Assembly (NCBI RefSeq): GCF_009900715.1
Contig: NZ_JAAAJC010000001.1
Coordinates: forward strand, 186,001-250,000
DNA from: Halococcus salsus
Lineage (GTDB): Archaea > Halobacteriota > Halobacteria > Halobacteriales > Halococcaceae
Length of the DNA: 64,000 nt
Direction of reading: 5' to 3'
Shown here: positions 29,861-50,156 of the stretch, piece by piece
How the letters are laid out: every line of letters starts with the position of its first letter
Numbering within the stretch: position 1 is the stretch's first letter
Position numbers and translations under genes: made by a program
Notes under the pieces: generated by a model
What the model was told of the DNA's origin: nothing
Seen by the model: only the letters and a program-made list of their open reading frames with translations
The model's database searches: none

Positions 29861-29968
29861 TCGGGTGGTGCGGTCGCCGCCAGGCGGCTGCGGTGCGGGG
29901 GTGGGTGCGGGCCTGGCGTCTCGGTGAGCGCCGCAGGCGCGAACCGAGGCTCAGGAGGGCTGTGCTCT

Positions 29969-30263
29969 CCTGGTGGATGAAGGGCGAAGCCCGCGAACGG
30001 AGTGAGTGGGCTGAGGGCTTCGGCGGAGGCGGTGCTGTGCGGGGCGGTTGCGGTCGCAGAGGTTTTTGTGATCTCACCGCGAGCGAACGGAGTGAGCGAG
30101 CGGGTGCGAGGGTGACTGCAAGGAACCCGACGCGCTTTTGATCCACATTTTGCGAGCGTCATCAGAACTGCTCCGCAGTTCTGATTGGCACACAAAATCG
30201 CTACGCGATTTTGGGACGAAGGAGCGAGCGCTAGCGATGCGACTGAACGTAGCAAAAGGTGGG
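29969..30263 (+). repeat. Repeat element A1 (family A, plus orientation)
   Basis: First of three family A copies. It begins CCTGGTGGATGAAGGGCGAA, contains the 20-base blocks GCGGTGCTGTGCGGGGCGGT (30029-30048) and GCTTTTGATCCACATTTTGC (30134-30153), both identical in A2 and A3, and ends AGCAAAAGGTGGG. The last part is enlarged by two perfect hairpins: arms of 11 bases at 30161-30185 (loop TCC) and of 9 bases at 30193-30213 (loop TAC). TTTTGC near 30148 and GCAAAA near 30252 can close the whole end as one long stem. It fills most of the gap 29861-30282 and stops 20 bases from the SRP RNA 3' end. Confidence 0.8.
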
Positions 30264-30282
30264 TATGTAGAAGGTGGGAAGT

Positions 30283-30588
30283 GGACGGGCCGGGATTGCC
30301 CGGCGTTCCGGCGCGGGGAAGCCCGCGTGCCTCCTCCACCCCGCGATCCGGCGAGCGACGGCTGTCCGGCGGTCCGCTGCTCACTTCCGTGCCTGACGGG
30401 CTGCCGCCGATTAACCGCGGCGGGTCGTCCCTGCAGACGAACAGCCGCGGACCGCCGCCCCCGACGGACGAGGCTTCGACGTTGGCTTGCGGGGCCCGCG
30501 CCGGTCGGCGCGGACGCACCCGGAATTCGGCCCCCGCTGAAGACCGTAGTGCGGGTTGCGAGCAGGGCCTAACTGCCCGACCTAGTCC
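30283..30588 (-). ncRNA. ffs: 7S signal recognition particle RNA
   Basis: About 306 bases on the minus strand, close to the 304 known for Halobacterium. Helix 8, the binding site of SRP54, is plain at 30372-30400: on the minus strand GTCAGGCACGGAAG is followed by TGAGCAGCGGAC, with the conserved GGAAG and AGCAGC loops. The ends pair as helix 1 (5' GGAC..GTCGGG with 3' CCCGGCCCGTCC), which set my limits; each may be off by a few bases. With SRP54 and SRP19 it targets nascent membrane and secreted proteins to the translocon. Open frames across it are spurious. Confidence 0.92.
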
Positions 30589-30610
30589 GATTTCAGGATA
30601 GCCGAGTCGA

Positions 30611-30618
30611 CCATAAGG
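30611..30618 (-). promoter_or_regulatory. TATA-like box of the SRP RNA gene
   Basis: On the minus strand CCTTATGG is centred 26-27 bases before the proposed 5' end at 30588, in agreement with the end predicted from helix 1 pairing. Element A2 begins 26 bases upstream of it. Confidence 0.6.
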
Positions 30619-30643
30619 ACCTTTCGAAACCCGCCTTTTGCGT

Positions 30644-30884
30644 CCCCACCTTTTGCTGCGCTCGTTCGCTCGCGATGCTCACTCACTCGCTGGCAAAATG
30701 TGGATCAAAAGCCAGCGTCACCCCCTGCGGGGGTTCCTCGGCCCGCTCACTCGCCTTCGGCTCGTTCGCGGTAGGATCACAAAGGCCCCCGCGACCGTCG
30801 TCGCAACCGCCCCGCACAGCACCGCTTCCGCCGAAGCCCTCAGCCCACTCACTCCGTTCGCGGGCTTCGCCCTTCATCCGCCAG
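30644..30884 (-). repeat. Repeat element A2 (family A, minus orientation)
   Basis: Second family A copy, inverted relative to A1, so the pair flanks the SRP RNA gene. It carries the two invariant blocks at 30806-30825 and 30693-30712. Its end, minus-strand AGCAAAAGGTGGGG, lies 26 bases upstream of the SRP TATA box. The variable hairpin between TTTTGC and GCAAAA is made of GAGTGAGTGAGC and GAGCGAACGAGC runs. It fills most of the gap 30619-30949; the last 65 bases before the ATPase gene stop are GC-rich without features. Confidence 0.8.
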
Positions 30885-30949
30885 GCACCGCACCGCTGCC
30901 GCGGACCGCACCGCGGCCGCAACGCGGCGTGACTCACTCCCGTACCGGA

Positions 30950-32860: not shown

Positions 32861-33175
32861 CCACTTTTTTCCTCCTCGGGTTGGCTCACTCCGTTCGCCA
32901 ACCTCTCGTCGCAAAAACCTGGACTAAAAACGGCCGCTCACTCGCGCTTCGCGCTCGTTCGCGGTACAATCACTACCGGCCACCGCCCCGCGCACCCGCC
33001 ACACGCCTCCCCAGCCGATTCACTCCGTTCGCTTCACTCACTTCGCTCATCCCTCGCACAGTGTTCGCGGTCGGCGTTCGCTATCGCTCACGCACGACCG
33101 CGAGCGCGCGCCAACCGCTTACGGCCGCAACCGCGACCGCACCACCTCCGACCGCAATCGCGACCGCACCCGCCG
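32861..33175 (-). repeat. Repeat element B1 (family B, minus orientation)
   Basis: About 315 bases in the gap 32822-33242 between the divergent ATPase and M20 genes. Minus-strand blocks shared exactly with B2 are TGTGCGAGGGATGAGC (33045-33060) and GGGGAGGCGTGTGGCGG (32996-33012). The end has TTTTTAGTCCAGGTTTTTGC (32911-32930), a hairpin with perfect arms GGTTGGC/GCCAACC, then AAAAAAGTGG. It stops a few bases before the TATA-like box of the PIN-ATPase gene. The outer boundary toward 33175 is approximate because the sequence fades into GCGGTTGCGGT runs. Confidence 0.75.
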
Positions 33176-33210
33176 CGGCGGATGAACGGGGTCGCTTCGC
33201 TCGACAGTAG

Positions 33211-38896: not shown

Positions 38897-38910
38897 CGAC
38901 AAACGGGAAG

Positions 38911-39239
38911 TGGGTGGGGCGGTTGCGGTCGTGGCCGTGCAGTGCGGTTGCGGTCGGAGTGGTCGGAGCGGTTGGCGCGCGCTGGCGAGCGGTGACGAGC
39001 GACAGCGAGCACCGCTCGCGAACATTGTGCGAGGGATGAGCACCGGAGTGAGCCGAAGGCGAACGAGGAGCGCAGTCGGTTGGGGAGGCGTGTGGCGGTT
39101 GCGGGATGGAGGCGGTAGCCAGTAGTGGCTGTACTGCGAGCGACCGCAGGGAGCGAGCAGCCCTTTTTAGTCCAGGTTTTTGGGCGGGGGTTGAGCGCGA
39201 GCGAAGCGAGCGCGATTCCCCCGTCTAAAAAAGTGGGTT
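38911..39239 (+). repeat. Repeat element B2 (family B, plus orientation)
   Basis: About 329 bases filling the gap 38897-39276. It shares exact blocks with B1 (TGTGCGAGGGATGAGC at 39026-39041; GGGGAGGCGTGTGGCGG at 39084-39100) and the end TTTTTAGTCCAGGTTTTTGG (39164-39183). The hairpin here is different from that of B1: GGGGG and CCCCC arms around a nested GCGCGAGCGAAGCGAGCGCG, closed by TTTTT and AAAAA tracts, then AAGTGGGTTA. It ends eight bases before the TATA-like box of the reductase gene. Confidence 0.75.
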
Positions 39240-39276: not shown

Positions 39277-40362
39277 ATGTACGATTTCGTCGTCAGCGGC
39301 GCGGGCCCCGCGGGCTGTCGGTTCTCCCGGCGCGCCGCGGAGGCGGGTCACGACGTGCTGGTGCTCGAACGCGGCGAGGTCGGCACGCCGCTCGCGTGCT
39401 CGGGCCACGTCAGCACCGACATCTGGCAGTTCACGCCCGAGGGCGCGCGCGAGGAGCTGCTCCAGAACGAGATCTCGGGCGCGCGATTCCACGTCGGCGG
39501 GCCGGGCGGCGACGGCCACCTGTTCTACAAGGACGAGACCATCTCGAACGTCATCAATCGGGTCGAGCTCGACCGGACGCTCGCCCGCGCCGCGCGCGAG
39601 GCCGGGGCGGATATTCGGGAGAATCACAGCGTGACCGGCGTCGAGGAGGGCGCGCGCTCGGCGACGGTGACCGCCCGAACACCCGAGGGAACCGAGACGT
39701 TCGAGACCCGGCTGGTGGCGGGCTGTGACGGGCCTGTTTCACGAGTTCGGCGCGAACTCGGGATACCGGAGCCGGGCGAGAAGCTCCAGGGCGTGCTCGG
39801 CTTCTCGACGGAGGACGACCCCGGTGACCACGTCGACGTCCACCTGACGGTTCCGGAGTTCTTCGCGTGGCGCATCCCTCGGGGGTCGGCGGGCGTCGAG
39901 TACGGACTCGCGGCCGCACCGGGCGAGAACGCGACCCAACTCTTCGACGAGTTCGTCGCTGACTACGGGGTCGAGACCGGCGAGACCCACGCCGGGATGA
40001 TCCCGATCGGGCCGGCCGACCGCGTCACGAGCTACCGTGGCTTCCTCGTGGGGGATGCGGCCGCCCAGACCAAGCCGTTCACCGGCGGCGGGCTCGTCTA
40101 CGGGATGACCGCCGCCGACCACGCCGCTCGCGAGATCGACCCCCACGACCCGGGGACGCTGAAGAACTACGAGAAGGCGTGGCGGGCTGACCTCGCGCGC
40201 GACATCCAGCTGGGTCACTGGGTCCGCCGGGCGTACTCGCTGCCCGAACCCGTCAAGCAGGCCGGCCTCGCGGCGTTTTCGGGCGAGATCGGGGTTCACA
40301 TGGACAAACCCACCACGCTGTTCTCGCCGGAGAGCCTGAAGACGCTCCTCTCGCGCTCCTGA
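39277..40362 (+). CDS. Geranylgeranyl reductase family FAD-dependent oxidoreductase
   Basis: A 361-residue flavoprotein. FAD binds at YDFVVSGAGPAGCRFSRRAA (N-terminal Rossmann fold) and at YRGFLVGDAAAQTKPFTGGG near residue 255, a motif of geranylgeranyl reductases; PLACSGHVSTD is the substrate-side loop. In archaea such enzymes saturate the isoprenoid chains of ether lipids or menaquinone side chains; this may be one of several paralogues. It acts at the membrane face. It converges with the GcvT-like gene, six bases between stops. Confidence 0.88.
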   Translation: MYDFVVSGAGPAGCRFSRRAAEAGHDVLVLERGEVGTPLACSGHVSTDIWQFTPEGAREELLQNEISGARFHVGGPGGDGHLFYKDETISNVINRVELDRTLARAAREAGADIRENHSVTGVEEGARSATVTARTPEGTETFETRLVAGCDGPVSRVRRELGIPEPGEKLQGVLGFSTEDDPGDHVDVHLTVPEFFAWRIPRGSAGVEYGLAAAPGENATQLFDEFVADYGVETGETHAGMIPIGPADRVTSYRGFLVGDAAAQTKPFTGGGLVYGMTAADHAAREIDPHDPGTLKNYEKAWRADLARDIQLGHWVRRAYSLPEPVKQAGLAAFSGEIGVHMDKPTTLFSPESLKTLLSRS

Positions 40363-41454: not shown

Positions 41455-41605
41455 TGTGGAATTTCGGGTGCGGCGGCGGATAAAGCGTGTCCTCTACGGA
41501 TACCGTTCCGGAACCAAACCCGAGAACCACTCGAAAAACGTCCTCTCATGGCTGCTCTTCCGCGACCCGTTCATCGAATCGCCACCGCCCCGCTCCACAC
41601 GACTG

Positions 41606-41613
41606 GTTTTTAT
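41606..41613 (+). promoter_or_regulatory. TATA-like box of the CrtI-like gene
   Basis: GTTTTTAT is centred about 27 bases before the ATG at 41637. Confidence 0.55.
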
Positions 41614-41636
41614 CCCGACAGCTTATTTCTTGAGAT

Positions 41637-43121
41637 ATGCCCTCCAACGAGTACGACGTCGCGGTCGTCGGTGGCGGCATCGGCGGGATGTGTACCGCGG
41701 CGCTGGCGGAGTCCGAGGGGTTCTCGACGGTGGTGCTCGAACAGCACCACCAGGTCGGCGGTTGTGCAGGATTCTACCATCGGAACGGGTTCACGTTCGA
41801 CGTCGGCGCGACGACGCTCGTCGACTTTCACCCGGAGGGTATCGGCGGGCAGTTGCTGGACCGACTCGGGTTCGATCCGCCACCGATCGACGTGCAGGAC
41901 GCCTACCAGGTGTGGCTCCCCGACCGAACGGTGACCCTCTATCACGACCAGCACCGCTGGCGGGACGAACTCCGGCGAACGTTCGGCGACGACGAAACCC
42001 ATCGACGGTTCTACGCGTTCCTCGAACGCACGGCCGCGGCGCTTTGGGAGGTCACTCGGAGCGACGTGAGACTCCCGATGCAGAACGTTAGAGACGTCTT
42101 GCGGAACGCGAAAACGGTCGGACTGGGAGACATTCGACTGGTCAGATATCTCCGGTGGACGATGAAGGACGCGCTCGTGCATTTCGACGTGTTCGACGAC
42201 GTCGCCCTTCGGACGATGATCGCTATGTTGGTCGAGGACACCGTCCACTCGACGCTCGCGGAGGCACCCCTTCTCAACGCGATTCTCGGGATATCCATCA
42301 GACGGGCGGGGATCGGGCGAGCGACCGGCGGCATGTATAGGTTCTGGAAGACCTTCGAGCGCCAGTACGCCGACATGGGCGGGACGGTCGAGACGAGCGA
42401 AACGGTACGAGAGATAACCGGTTCGAAGGGTGCGTTCCGACTCGCCACCGACCGGGGCCAGTATCGAAGCGATCAGGTCGTGAGTGCGGTCCCGATCGAC
42501 CTGACGAAGCGGATCGCTCCCGCCGTCATCGGTGATCGGCTCGACGACGAGACCGAACGGCTCCGTGAACACACGGGTGGTGCGGCCGTCGTCTTTCTCG
42601 GCGTACCGGAGGAGCGCGTTGCGGATCGGAAGGTGACGCACCATCAGGTCCTGCGTGGATACGACGACCCGCTCGGCGACGGCAACAACATGTTCGTCTC
42701 GGTTTCGGCACCGGAGGATACGATCAGCGCACCGGCCGGTCACCGTGCGGTCATCCTCTCCACACACTGTGACCTCTCACCGTGGCAGGACCTCGACGAG
42801 GCGATGTATCGGCGAAAAAAGAACGCGATCGGAAACCGACTGGTCGACGGTGCCCGAACGGTCTACCCCGAACTCGGTACGGACCCGCTGGTCTACGAGG
42901 TCGGGACACCCAAAACATACGAAGAGTTCACCAATAGACCGAACGGCGCGGTCGGGGGCTATCGACAGACGGTGGGGAACGCGAACCAGAACGCGGTACC
43001 GCAGGACATCGGGATCGATGGGTTCTACCTCGCCGGGGATACGACGTGGCCAGGACTCGGCACCGTCGCCTGCGTGAAGGGAAGTTCGATCGCGGCCGAG
43101 CACGTCGTGCGGACGGGGTGA
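41637..43121 (+). CDS. Phytoene desaturase-like FAD oxidoreductase (CrtI/CrtISO family)
   Basis: A 494-residue flavoprotein. The dinucleotide motif VAVVGGGIGGMCTAALAESE is followed by VVLEQHHQVGGCAGFYHRNG, as in phytoene desaturases and carotenoid isomerases; the C-terminal FAD motif is IDGFYLAGDTTWPGLGTVAC. The middle (LLNAILGISIRRAGIGRATG, GGMYRFWKTFERQYADMGG) is family-typical. It may desaturate, isomerise or saturate an isoprenoid. No other carotenoid gene is nearby, so the pathway cannot be named. GC is slightly lower than in flanking genes. Confidence 0.85.
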   Translation: MPSNEYDVAVVGGGIGGMCTAALAESEGFSTVVLEQHHQVGGCAGFYHRNGFTFDVGATTLVDFHPEGIGGQLLDRLGFDPPPIDVQDAYQVWLPDRTVTLYHDQHRWRDELRRTFGDDETHRRFYAFLERTAAALWEVTRSDVRLPMQNVRDVLRNAKTVGLGDIRLVRYLRWTMKDALVHFDVFDDVALRTMIAMLVEDTVHSTLAEAPLLNAILGISIRRAGIGRATGGMYRFWKTFERQYADMGGTVETSETVREITGSKGAFRLATDRGQYRSDQVVSAVPIDLTKRIAPAVIGDRLDDETERLREHTGGAAVVFLGVPEERVADRKVTHHQVLRGYDDPLGDGNNMFVSVSAPEDTISAPAGHRAVILSTHCDLSPWQDLDEAMYRRKKNAIGNRLVDGARTVYPELGTDPLVYEVGTPKTYEEFTNRPNGAVGGYRQTVGNANQNAVPQDIGIDGFYLAGDTTWPGLGTVACVKGSSIAAEHVVRTG

Positions 43122-43234
43122 TGGTGCGAGCTTCGACTGCCCGCTTCCCCTTTCGACATCGGTTCCGCTCGCTGTGCGTCACTGTACCGGCTACCGTTTC
43201 GGCGAATTCCAATCGTCGTCGCTTTCTTTCCCTT

Positions 43235-45369: not shown

Positions 45370-45450
45370 GCGGCCACGCCGGTCGGACCCGGTATATCTC
45401 TTACGGCAAGGCCGTCCGTCGAGTTCCGGGTACTGATTTTTACTTGGCGT

Positions 45451-45951
45451 TCACCGGGAGTAGTAGGGTAGTTCTCTTACCGACTCCGAGAACCAAGACA
45501 ATCCCAGAGCGCACGGCACGCCGACCACGATGCCAATGAGTGAATTGATGATCGAAAGCACTGCACCGAGGGTGAGGAACGTGGTCGGGACTTGTGTTGG
45601 GAGAAGAACGAGTATCACGCCGAGTAGTATCGATACCTCGATGACGATGCATAAGACTGGAAAAAACAGCACGGACCACCAGAACTGTCGTTCGAGCTTT
45701 CGCCGATACGTGTCGTGACTGAAGTGGCGGTCGGCTACCGGTCCGCCAAACACCGGATAGAGCGCGACGATGATCAACCCGGACGAGACGGGCCCCAACC
45801 AAACCGGAAGGTAGACGTGGTATTGTTCCGCGATCGGAGTGCGCGCTGCTTGAAGGACCACGAGCGTTGCCGCTGAACCCACTACGTAGAGAACGACGCC
45901 AGTGAGGAGCCACAGCGGACCGCTCCGTTTCCGAACCGCTCCACTGCCCAT
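45451..45951 (-). CDS. Four-helix membrane protein, unknown function
   Basis: A 166-residue protein. Helices are seen at residues about 13-34 (LWLLTGVVLYVVGSAATLVV), 47-68 (VWLGPVSSGLIIVALYPVFG), 90-118 (WWSVLFFPVLCIVIEVSILL) and 123-150 (FLTLGAVLSIINSLIGIVVG). No motif is recognised. Base composition is lower in GC than neighbours, though not extreme, and few other genomes may carry it. It stands alone between sepF and the dehydrogenase gene. Confidence 0.65.
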   Translation of the reverse strand: MGSGAVRKRSGPLWLLTGVVLYVVGSAATLVVLQAARTPIAEQYHVYLPVWLGPVSSGLIIVALYPVFGGPVADRHFSHDTYRRKLERQFWWSVLFFPVLCIVIEVSILLGVILVLLPTQVPTTFLTLGAVLSIINSLIGIVVGVPCALGLSWFSESVRELPYYSR

Positions 45952-46042
45952 ACGGGACTACACAGTCCGATCGTGAAATAAACTCGCTAACTCGCTTTCG
46001 GTCGTGGGGTGACTTTTTCCGCTCACCGCCCGATGTGGGGAC

Positions 46043-49822: not shown

Positions 49823-49935
49823 GAAACGACCAATTCCACGCGCCGTAATCAGGATTGTGCCACGGGGGCTGCGGTGCGGCGCGGCCGCCGCGCGGTTGCG
49901 GTACGGATGTGGGGCGGTGGCGGTAGCAGTGTAGT

Positions 49936-50156
49936 CCTGGTGGATGAAGGGCGAGGCCCGAACGGAGTGGGTGGCCGAGGGCTTCAGCGGAGGCGGTGCT
50001 GTGCGGGGCGGTAGAGGTAGTGATGTACCGTGAGCGAGGCGGGGCCGAGCGAGCGGGCCAAGGAACCCCCGAGCGAAGCGAGTGGGGTGACGCAGGCTTT
50101 TGATCCACATTTTGCCAGGGAGCGAACGAAGTGAGCGACCGCAGCAAAAGGTGGGG
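49936..50156 (+). repeat. Repeat element A3 (family A, plus orientation)
   Basis: Third family A copy, in the gap 49823-50158. The invariant blocks lie at 49993-50012 and 50096-50115. Between TTTTGC and GCAAAA the variable part is short, made of GGGAGCGAACG and AAGTGAGCGACC, giving the simplest form of the terminal hairpin. It ends AGCAAAAGGTGGGG, two bases before the stop codon of the minus-strand gene at 50159, so the junction is very tight. Confidence 0.8.

Follow-up and report, generated by a model that had tools for sequence, protein, structure and literature searches.

REP/BIME repeats, which occur with RAYT, are hairpins scattered between genes, close to gene 3′ ends; their foot is short and conserved, and their stems vary. 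Fungal mitochondria harbor double-hairpin elements that are non-coding, intergenic, and mobile-looking, and integron attC sites are sequence-variable hairpins, located right after stop codons, for which the folded strand is decisive. Among haloarchaea, Haloquadratum has PATEs, which lack a transposase, bear palindromes close to their ends, and serve as targets for small invading repeats (PMC3119063). In Haloferax, intergenic 3′ ends coincide with T-stretches, some of them preceded by a hairpin, and 95% termination was obtained with a T5C insert (PMC7237163).

The tail described here comprises a T-tract, a core, a second T-tract, a variable hairpin, an A-tract, and GTGG. It was found in a 64,000-nt stretch of a Halococcus genome (the window), and the genome as a whole (3.52 Mb, 30 contigs; nearest named relative, judged by the PIN/ATPase gene, H. 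thailandensis) holds ∼80 copies. Like REP/BIME repeats, the tails are dispersed intergenic hairpins with a conserved foot and variable stems, but they need no RAYT or other Y1 gene, and neither a T/A-tract stem nor tandem-GA ladders are, to our knowledge, REP features. They share the look of the fungal mitochondrial elements in a different lineage, and neither a T-tract core nor a GA ladder nor a boundary spacing is known to us from those elements. The comparison with attC concerns only how such a hairpin works; neither cassette arrays nor attC-type core sites were seen here.

The PATEs and SMRs of Haloquadratum walsbyi (PMC3119063) are, like the tails, haloarchaeal, dispersed, and transposase-free, with terminal palindromes and nested hairpin inserts. 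PATEs are, however, related to IS605 ends and form strain-specific insertions (PMC3119063), whereas the tail elements have no IS605 link, occupy sites shared between species, carry hypervariable hairpins, and abut gene boundaries. With the haloarchaeal T-stretch terminators the tails share a hairpin and T-tract at intergenic 3′ ends; the cited portion of that work describes T-stretch motifs, without a module in which T-tract, hairpin, and A-tract combine with a covarying triplet (PMC7237163). Nor did the tail find a counterpart in Rfam, plasmid annotations, or the open-access papers searched. Rfam returned only SRP and tRNAs for the window at the gathering threshold and only SRP for four element loci at E values up to 5, and the ladder sequences match nothing in the open-access papers covered by the search. 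The tail module is apparently undescribed so far.

Results

A- and B-Type Tails Are Alternative Ends of One Element Class

The window contains three A-type and two B-type tails, all as a prior, sequence-only reading had described them (Table 1); the chance expectation for matches to either core in the window is zero. The A-tract/GTGG halves of the A copies lie at 30253–30262, 30646–30655, and 50145–50154. The common terminal design proposed for A and B is borne out, with the two behaving as alternative tails that swap at the same sites; a minor correction is that the A copy at 30136 ends in GTGGGTATG rather than GTGGGG. This tail stops 17 nt short of the SRP RNA gene 3′ end, and its body contains GGATGA...GGGGCGGTTGCGG, with a GA-ladder hairpin immediately 5′ of the T-tract. 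The GTGG end of the B-type tail at 39164 lies 40 nt upstream of the start codon of the gene at 39277.

Table 1. Tails, Bodies, and the Neighboring SRP RNA Gene in the Window
Feature	Position	Strand	Remarks
A-type tail (locus of the original observation)	30136..30262	+	core TTTTGATCCACATTTTGC 30136-30153; multi-hairpin insert within the variable inner hairpin
Terminal half of this tail, GCAAAAGGTGG	30252-30262	+	
Body of tail 30136..30262	29957..30135	+	left boundary uncertain
Archaeal SRP (7S) RNA gene	30279..30592	-	neighbor between two inverted A elements; outside element
A-type tail, SRP RNA gene promoter side	30646..30710	-	core 30693-30710
Body of tail 30646..30710	30711..30949	-	downstream of PIN/ATPase gene
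B-type tail (TTTTTAGTCCAGGTTTTTG ... AAAAAAGTGG)	32861..32930	-	divergent genes either side; core 32912-32929
Body of tail 32861..32930	32931..33200	-	left boundary approximate
B-type tail	39164..39236	+	core 39165-39182
Body of tail 39164..39236	38899..39163	+	
A-type tail, simple inner hairpin	50098..50154	+	core 50098-50115
Body of tail 50098..50154	49823..50097	+	left boundary approximate

Genomic copies were gathered as loci and stretches. Genome-wide, there are 45 exact copies of the 18-base A core and just six with one to three mismatches (45/51 exact); for the B core, the numbers are 25 exact and seven mismatched. Such exactness does not fit old copies that decay neutrally.

Several further features of the copies can be described. 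The two inverted A elements bracket the SRP RNA gene (window 29957–30949), with an 84-nt arm in the body 30711..30949 that is 98% complementary to 29969–30052, so that recombination between the arms could invert the gene. In several congeners, a different sequence follows the PIN/ATPase gene. The 3′ end GCAAAAGGTGGGG is often in tandem duplicate, with units of ∼15 nt (window 30625–30655; L202, L203, and L218), and the copy at 30646 has one GCAAAAGGTGGGG-type unit more than its counterpart in a sister species (G007). Insert modules of two hairpins with fixed linkers, such as GTGGTTCG-stem-TCATCACG-stem-CGAACGACAG and ACCGTGCGA...GAGCAGAGAG, recur at hairpin tips (window 30150–30240; L018, L031, L043, L047, L052, L121, and L226). 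These modules are shared across genera, are found in both orientations in L047, and resemble small repeats that target palindromes.

Base Pairing Is Kept while the Letters Change

The T- and A-tracts pair to close a hairpin, as had been proposed, and the pairing extends outward beyond that claim into the core triplet, which itself pairs with the tail end (CCAC-A-TTTTGC / GCAAAA-G-GTGG; CCA-GG-TTTTT / AAAAA-AG-TGG). T5-type tails were picked by their T tract, A tract, and the G after the A-tract, with the triplets not used. With two registers permitted, giving a chance of ∼1 in 32 per tail, the closing triplet is complementary in 105 of 108 distinct tails, which use seven different triplets: CCA/TGG (76), GTA/TAC (12), CGA/TCG (5), and GGA/TCC (5), and the rarer GCA/TGC (4), GAA/TTC (2), and CTA/TAG (1). 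It is likewise complementary in 68 of 69 A-type tails, CGA/TCG and GCA/TGC variants included, and this set holds two perfect CGAAA/TTTCG palindromes.

The inner hairpin was said to differ between copies yet always fold, and across genera its pairing is indeed preserved while its letters are replaced. When arms were permuted among copies, pairing with the own partner was beaten in 0 of 2000 swaps for A and 0 of 2000 for B. An alignment of 35 tails (A1) has 95.2% paired cells, compared with 86.6% after shuffling, and its covariation score was reached in 0 of 500 shuffles. Pairing is therefore better conserved than in shuffled sequence, the opposite of the outcome that the sequence-only reading had named as its refutation. 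The further claim that this marks selection on structure carries a caveat: template switching, which creates and maintains hairpins, can also make and keep pairing (PMC8794818). Since one architecture recurs in 49 genera, selection on the fold is still the better reading.

The Stems Contain Tandem G-A Ladders

Stems consist of Watson-Crick segments alternating with tandem G-A mismatches, as in GA GC GA AC [GAA] GT GA GC GA. The conserved inner part, CGAGGAG-N-GG...CC-CGACGAG, can be read from the alignment as a C-G pair, GA/GA, G-C, GA/GA, G-C, one bulged base, and then Watson-Crick pairs. The middle pair of the ladder is G-C in 34 cases, C-G in 16, T-A in one, and T-G in one, and is never mispaired; the bulged base varies in identity (T 37, C 11, A 4). 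Hairpins in element loci with two identical 2 × 2 mismatch steps number 40 for GA/GA and, on the other strand, 49 for TC/TC. No other single mismatch type is seen more than once, and such hairpins are absent from shuffles.

Elements contain 3.11 GA/GA loops each, compared with 0.14 in dinucleotide shuffles, and the folding Z score is −2.28 on the + strand of the element versus −1.43 on the − strand. Folding energy is also better on the + strand in 74 of 74 elements. This energy gap is mostly composition (−17.9 observed versus −14.6 shuffled), so we use only the GA/GA loop excess and the Z scores as structural signals.

Tails Abut Gene Boundaries

A simple gene finder based on codon usage, with ten genes of the window as its training set, places nearly all tails in the host genome outside predicted genes. 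Where a tail faces a neighbor's stop codon or tRNA 3′ end, its end is 2–7 nt away in most such copies. Of 11 B tails that precede a gene start, 8 end 38–41 nt ahead of the start codon, a spacing that would place them directly against the promoter. No promoter was obvious in the GC-rich bodies on inspection by eye.

The T-tract is enriched 3′ of genes both in other genera and in the host genome. The gene context of 32 tails from outside Halococcus is convergent for 20, tandem for 12, and divergent for none. In Halococcus, by contrast, 12 of 73 copies (7 A, 5 B) lie between divergent genes, so that the element there is probably not a terminator only. The upstream gene points into the Halococcus element for 25 of 45 A copies and 13 of 28 B copies.

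In a more distant congener, G004, gene pairs that flank A or B elements are adjacent in 3 of 33 mapped cases and those that flank long element-free gaps in 9 of 16; with less than one-third of G004 sampled, this is only suggestive of a tendency for elements to coincide with rearrangement breakpoints.

Elements Stay at the Same Sites while Hairpins Turn Over

Every tail of the sister species G007 with two placeable flanks (∼93% identical) has an element at the same site of the host genome (G000). This includes two G007 sites that appear empty in G000, where altered but still pairing tails are present. In L322, the T-tract is broken and its partner compensated (TTTCTT/AAGAAA). The inner hairpins at shared sites almost always differ. 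At L203/L059, L211/L052, and L214/L050, one species has an A tail and the other a B tail; the L085/L200 site has CGA/TCG versus CCA/TGG; and between L235 and L023 a compensatory double change is the sole inner difference. At the L023 site in G004 (∼72% identity), the body is the same and a B tail replaces the A tail.

Hairpin turnover exceeds the pace of point mutation, with sequence swapped faster than in the surrounding genes. Loops in both orientations occur in 12 stems, compared with 12.3 expected after shuffling of loops among stems. The 5′ arm of L065 is the exact complement of its own 3′ arm, which looks like a template-switching event.

Copies are gained or lost, slowly, on the time scale of the genus. 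Seven congeners lack the B element of 32861–33200 at the corresponding site and retain a 15-bp stretch that it replaces, and G003 has an apparently separate body insertion ∼15 bp from this site. The L047 element is absent from G004, and A copy numbers differ widely among congeners. Two window stretches, 41490–43234 (∼1.7 kb) and 45414–46006 (∼0.6 kb), are missing at the same place in G007.

Tails Occur across the Halobacteriales, Independently of Y1 Genes

We searched 146 sampled Halobacteriales genomes with a covariance model of the tail, scoring at most 34 candidates per genome; per-genome counts are lower bounds. The tail was found in 128 of these genomes and in 49 of 56 genera, and elsewhere in the phylum only four genomes gave matches, all marginal. 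Copies are also present on seven haloarchaeal plasmids, all outside annotated genes, and halovirus and phage records contain no tail match. The AT-rich repeats of HF1-type haloviruses, which carry promoters, are unrelated.

An association with IS200/IS605-type or RAYT transposases, suggested by the sequence-only reading, is unsupported. The copies do have terminal hairpins, the near-terminal palindromes of IS200/IS605 elements or PATEs. However, a Y1 gene is present in only 77 of the 146 genomes and absent from 69, and the Halococcus genomes G003, G006, and G008 have at least 22–33 tail matches each and no Y1 gene. The search for a Y1-type transposase or RAYT gene in the host genome yielded a single Y1 gene (L089, G000:C1:1346449), beside a TnpB gene in an IS605-type element with ends unrelated to the tail. 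Eleven further TnpB-type matches are present. Neither the Y1 locus nor any of the 12 TnpB matches has a tail motif within 1.5 kb, and no RAYT-type single-copy Y1 gene flanked by repeats was found. The lack of tails at TnpB loci also speaks against a TnpB-type guide RNA at a transposon end.

Discussion

The reading that we prefer, at about an even chance of being right, is that the tail is a bidirectional, terminator-like 3′-end module, which in Halococcus ends a dispersed element that exchanges its hairpins. Position, the two-way T-tracts, the gene context in other genera, and the Haloferax data on termination at T-stretches and hairpins (PMC7237163) favor it, and position likewise favors RNA as the putative acting molecule. 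In the module, a GC-rich hairpin and a T-tract precede a second hairpin, in which base pairing holds the closing triplet, the stem of T- and A-tracts, and the tandem-GA ladder. The T-tracts, facing both ways, most likely halt transcription arriving from either side, and the folded strand may protect or fix the 3′ end of read-through RNA.

Halococcus tails end a ∼330-nt dispersed element that fills intergenic space. Since it would supply its own terminators, such a carrier of body and tail might do no harm next to stop codons. Copies would keep swapping tails and hairpin tips by gene conversion with one another and probably also by template switching. Exchange among many copies best explains the turnover; a second source would be template switching (PMC8794818).

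This reading has weak points. The upstream gene enters the Halococcus element only about half of the time, divergent copies are not predicted by a pure terminator, and the A-type T-tracts are just four T long. Moreover, complete termination at the T-tract would leave the second hairpin untranscribed, so its conservation needs either read-through or a role at the DNA level.

More tentatively, the tails may be a clade-wide class of structured gene-boundary elements, hypervariable in sequence through cassette exchange, whose fold is recognized by a conserved haloarchaeal factor. The recognized fold would be the closing triplet, the T/A stem, and the tandem-GA ladder with its one bulge. If this is true, the same boundary in sister species carries different hairpins and one fold.

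The main rival, which we think unlikely, makes the tail a terminus of a non-autonomous transposon, recognized as folded single-stranded DNA by a putative transposase or recombinase, with the strand-specific tandem-GA hairpins as the signal. Presence and absence at two sites, the apparently independent body insertion in G003, the large differences in A copy number, the structural preference for one strand, and an orientation in Halococcus that is nearly independent of the upstream gene are all consistent with this. Against it, no autonomous partner was found at the Y1 and TnpB loci, elements persist at shared sites in different species instead of coming and going as insertions do, and copies in other genera avoid divergent regions. 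A fixed transposase also predicts conserved hairpins, whereas these are hypervariable.

Somewhat less probable still, the tails could be old repeats without function, whose palindromes are made and kept by quasi-palindrome template switching and gene conversion with no selection on the fold. The activity of template switching at hairpins (PMC8794818), the L065 arms, and turnover faster than point mutation agree with this, as do loops in both orientations, although shuffling the loops among stems yields these just as often. Unexplained would be the recurrence in 49 genera of one architecture with its GA-ladder positions and closing stem, the exact cores, the fixed spacing to stops and promoters, and retention at all compared sites. 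In addition, perfecting by template switching would erase the G-A mismatches, yet these are kept.

Improbable, in our view, is a hairpin that serves RNA stability or processing only, as a barrier to 3′–5′ exonucleases or a cleavage site, with the T-tracts incidental. A conserved single-strand fold with a bulged base of variable identity would fit such a role, as would the compensation in L322, where pairing seems to outweigh the T-run, but about half of the Halococcus copies have no gene transcribing in from upstream and their bodies have no promoter obvious by eye. An origin as Y1 elements, either PATE or IS200/IS605 derivatives or REP/RAYT-type repeats, is largely refuted by the single Y1 gene with different ends, the Y1-free but tail-rich genomes, and the tail-free TnpB loci, even though the hairpin inserts recall the small-repeat invasion of PATEs (PMC3119063).

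Haloarchaeal gene ends are poorly understood, and a covarying module present in 128 of 146 genomes is a testable candidate for a general 3′-end signal. The Halococcus sites are also a natural experiment in hairpin evolution, in which flanks remain ∼93% identical while the hairpin between them is replaced outright and still folds. Since replacement with folding occurs at the same sites, selection on structure and template switching should be separable experimentally.
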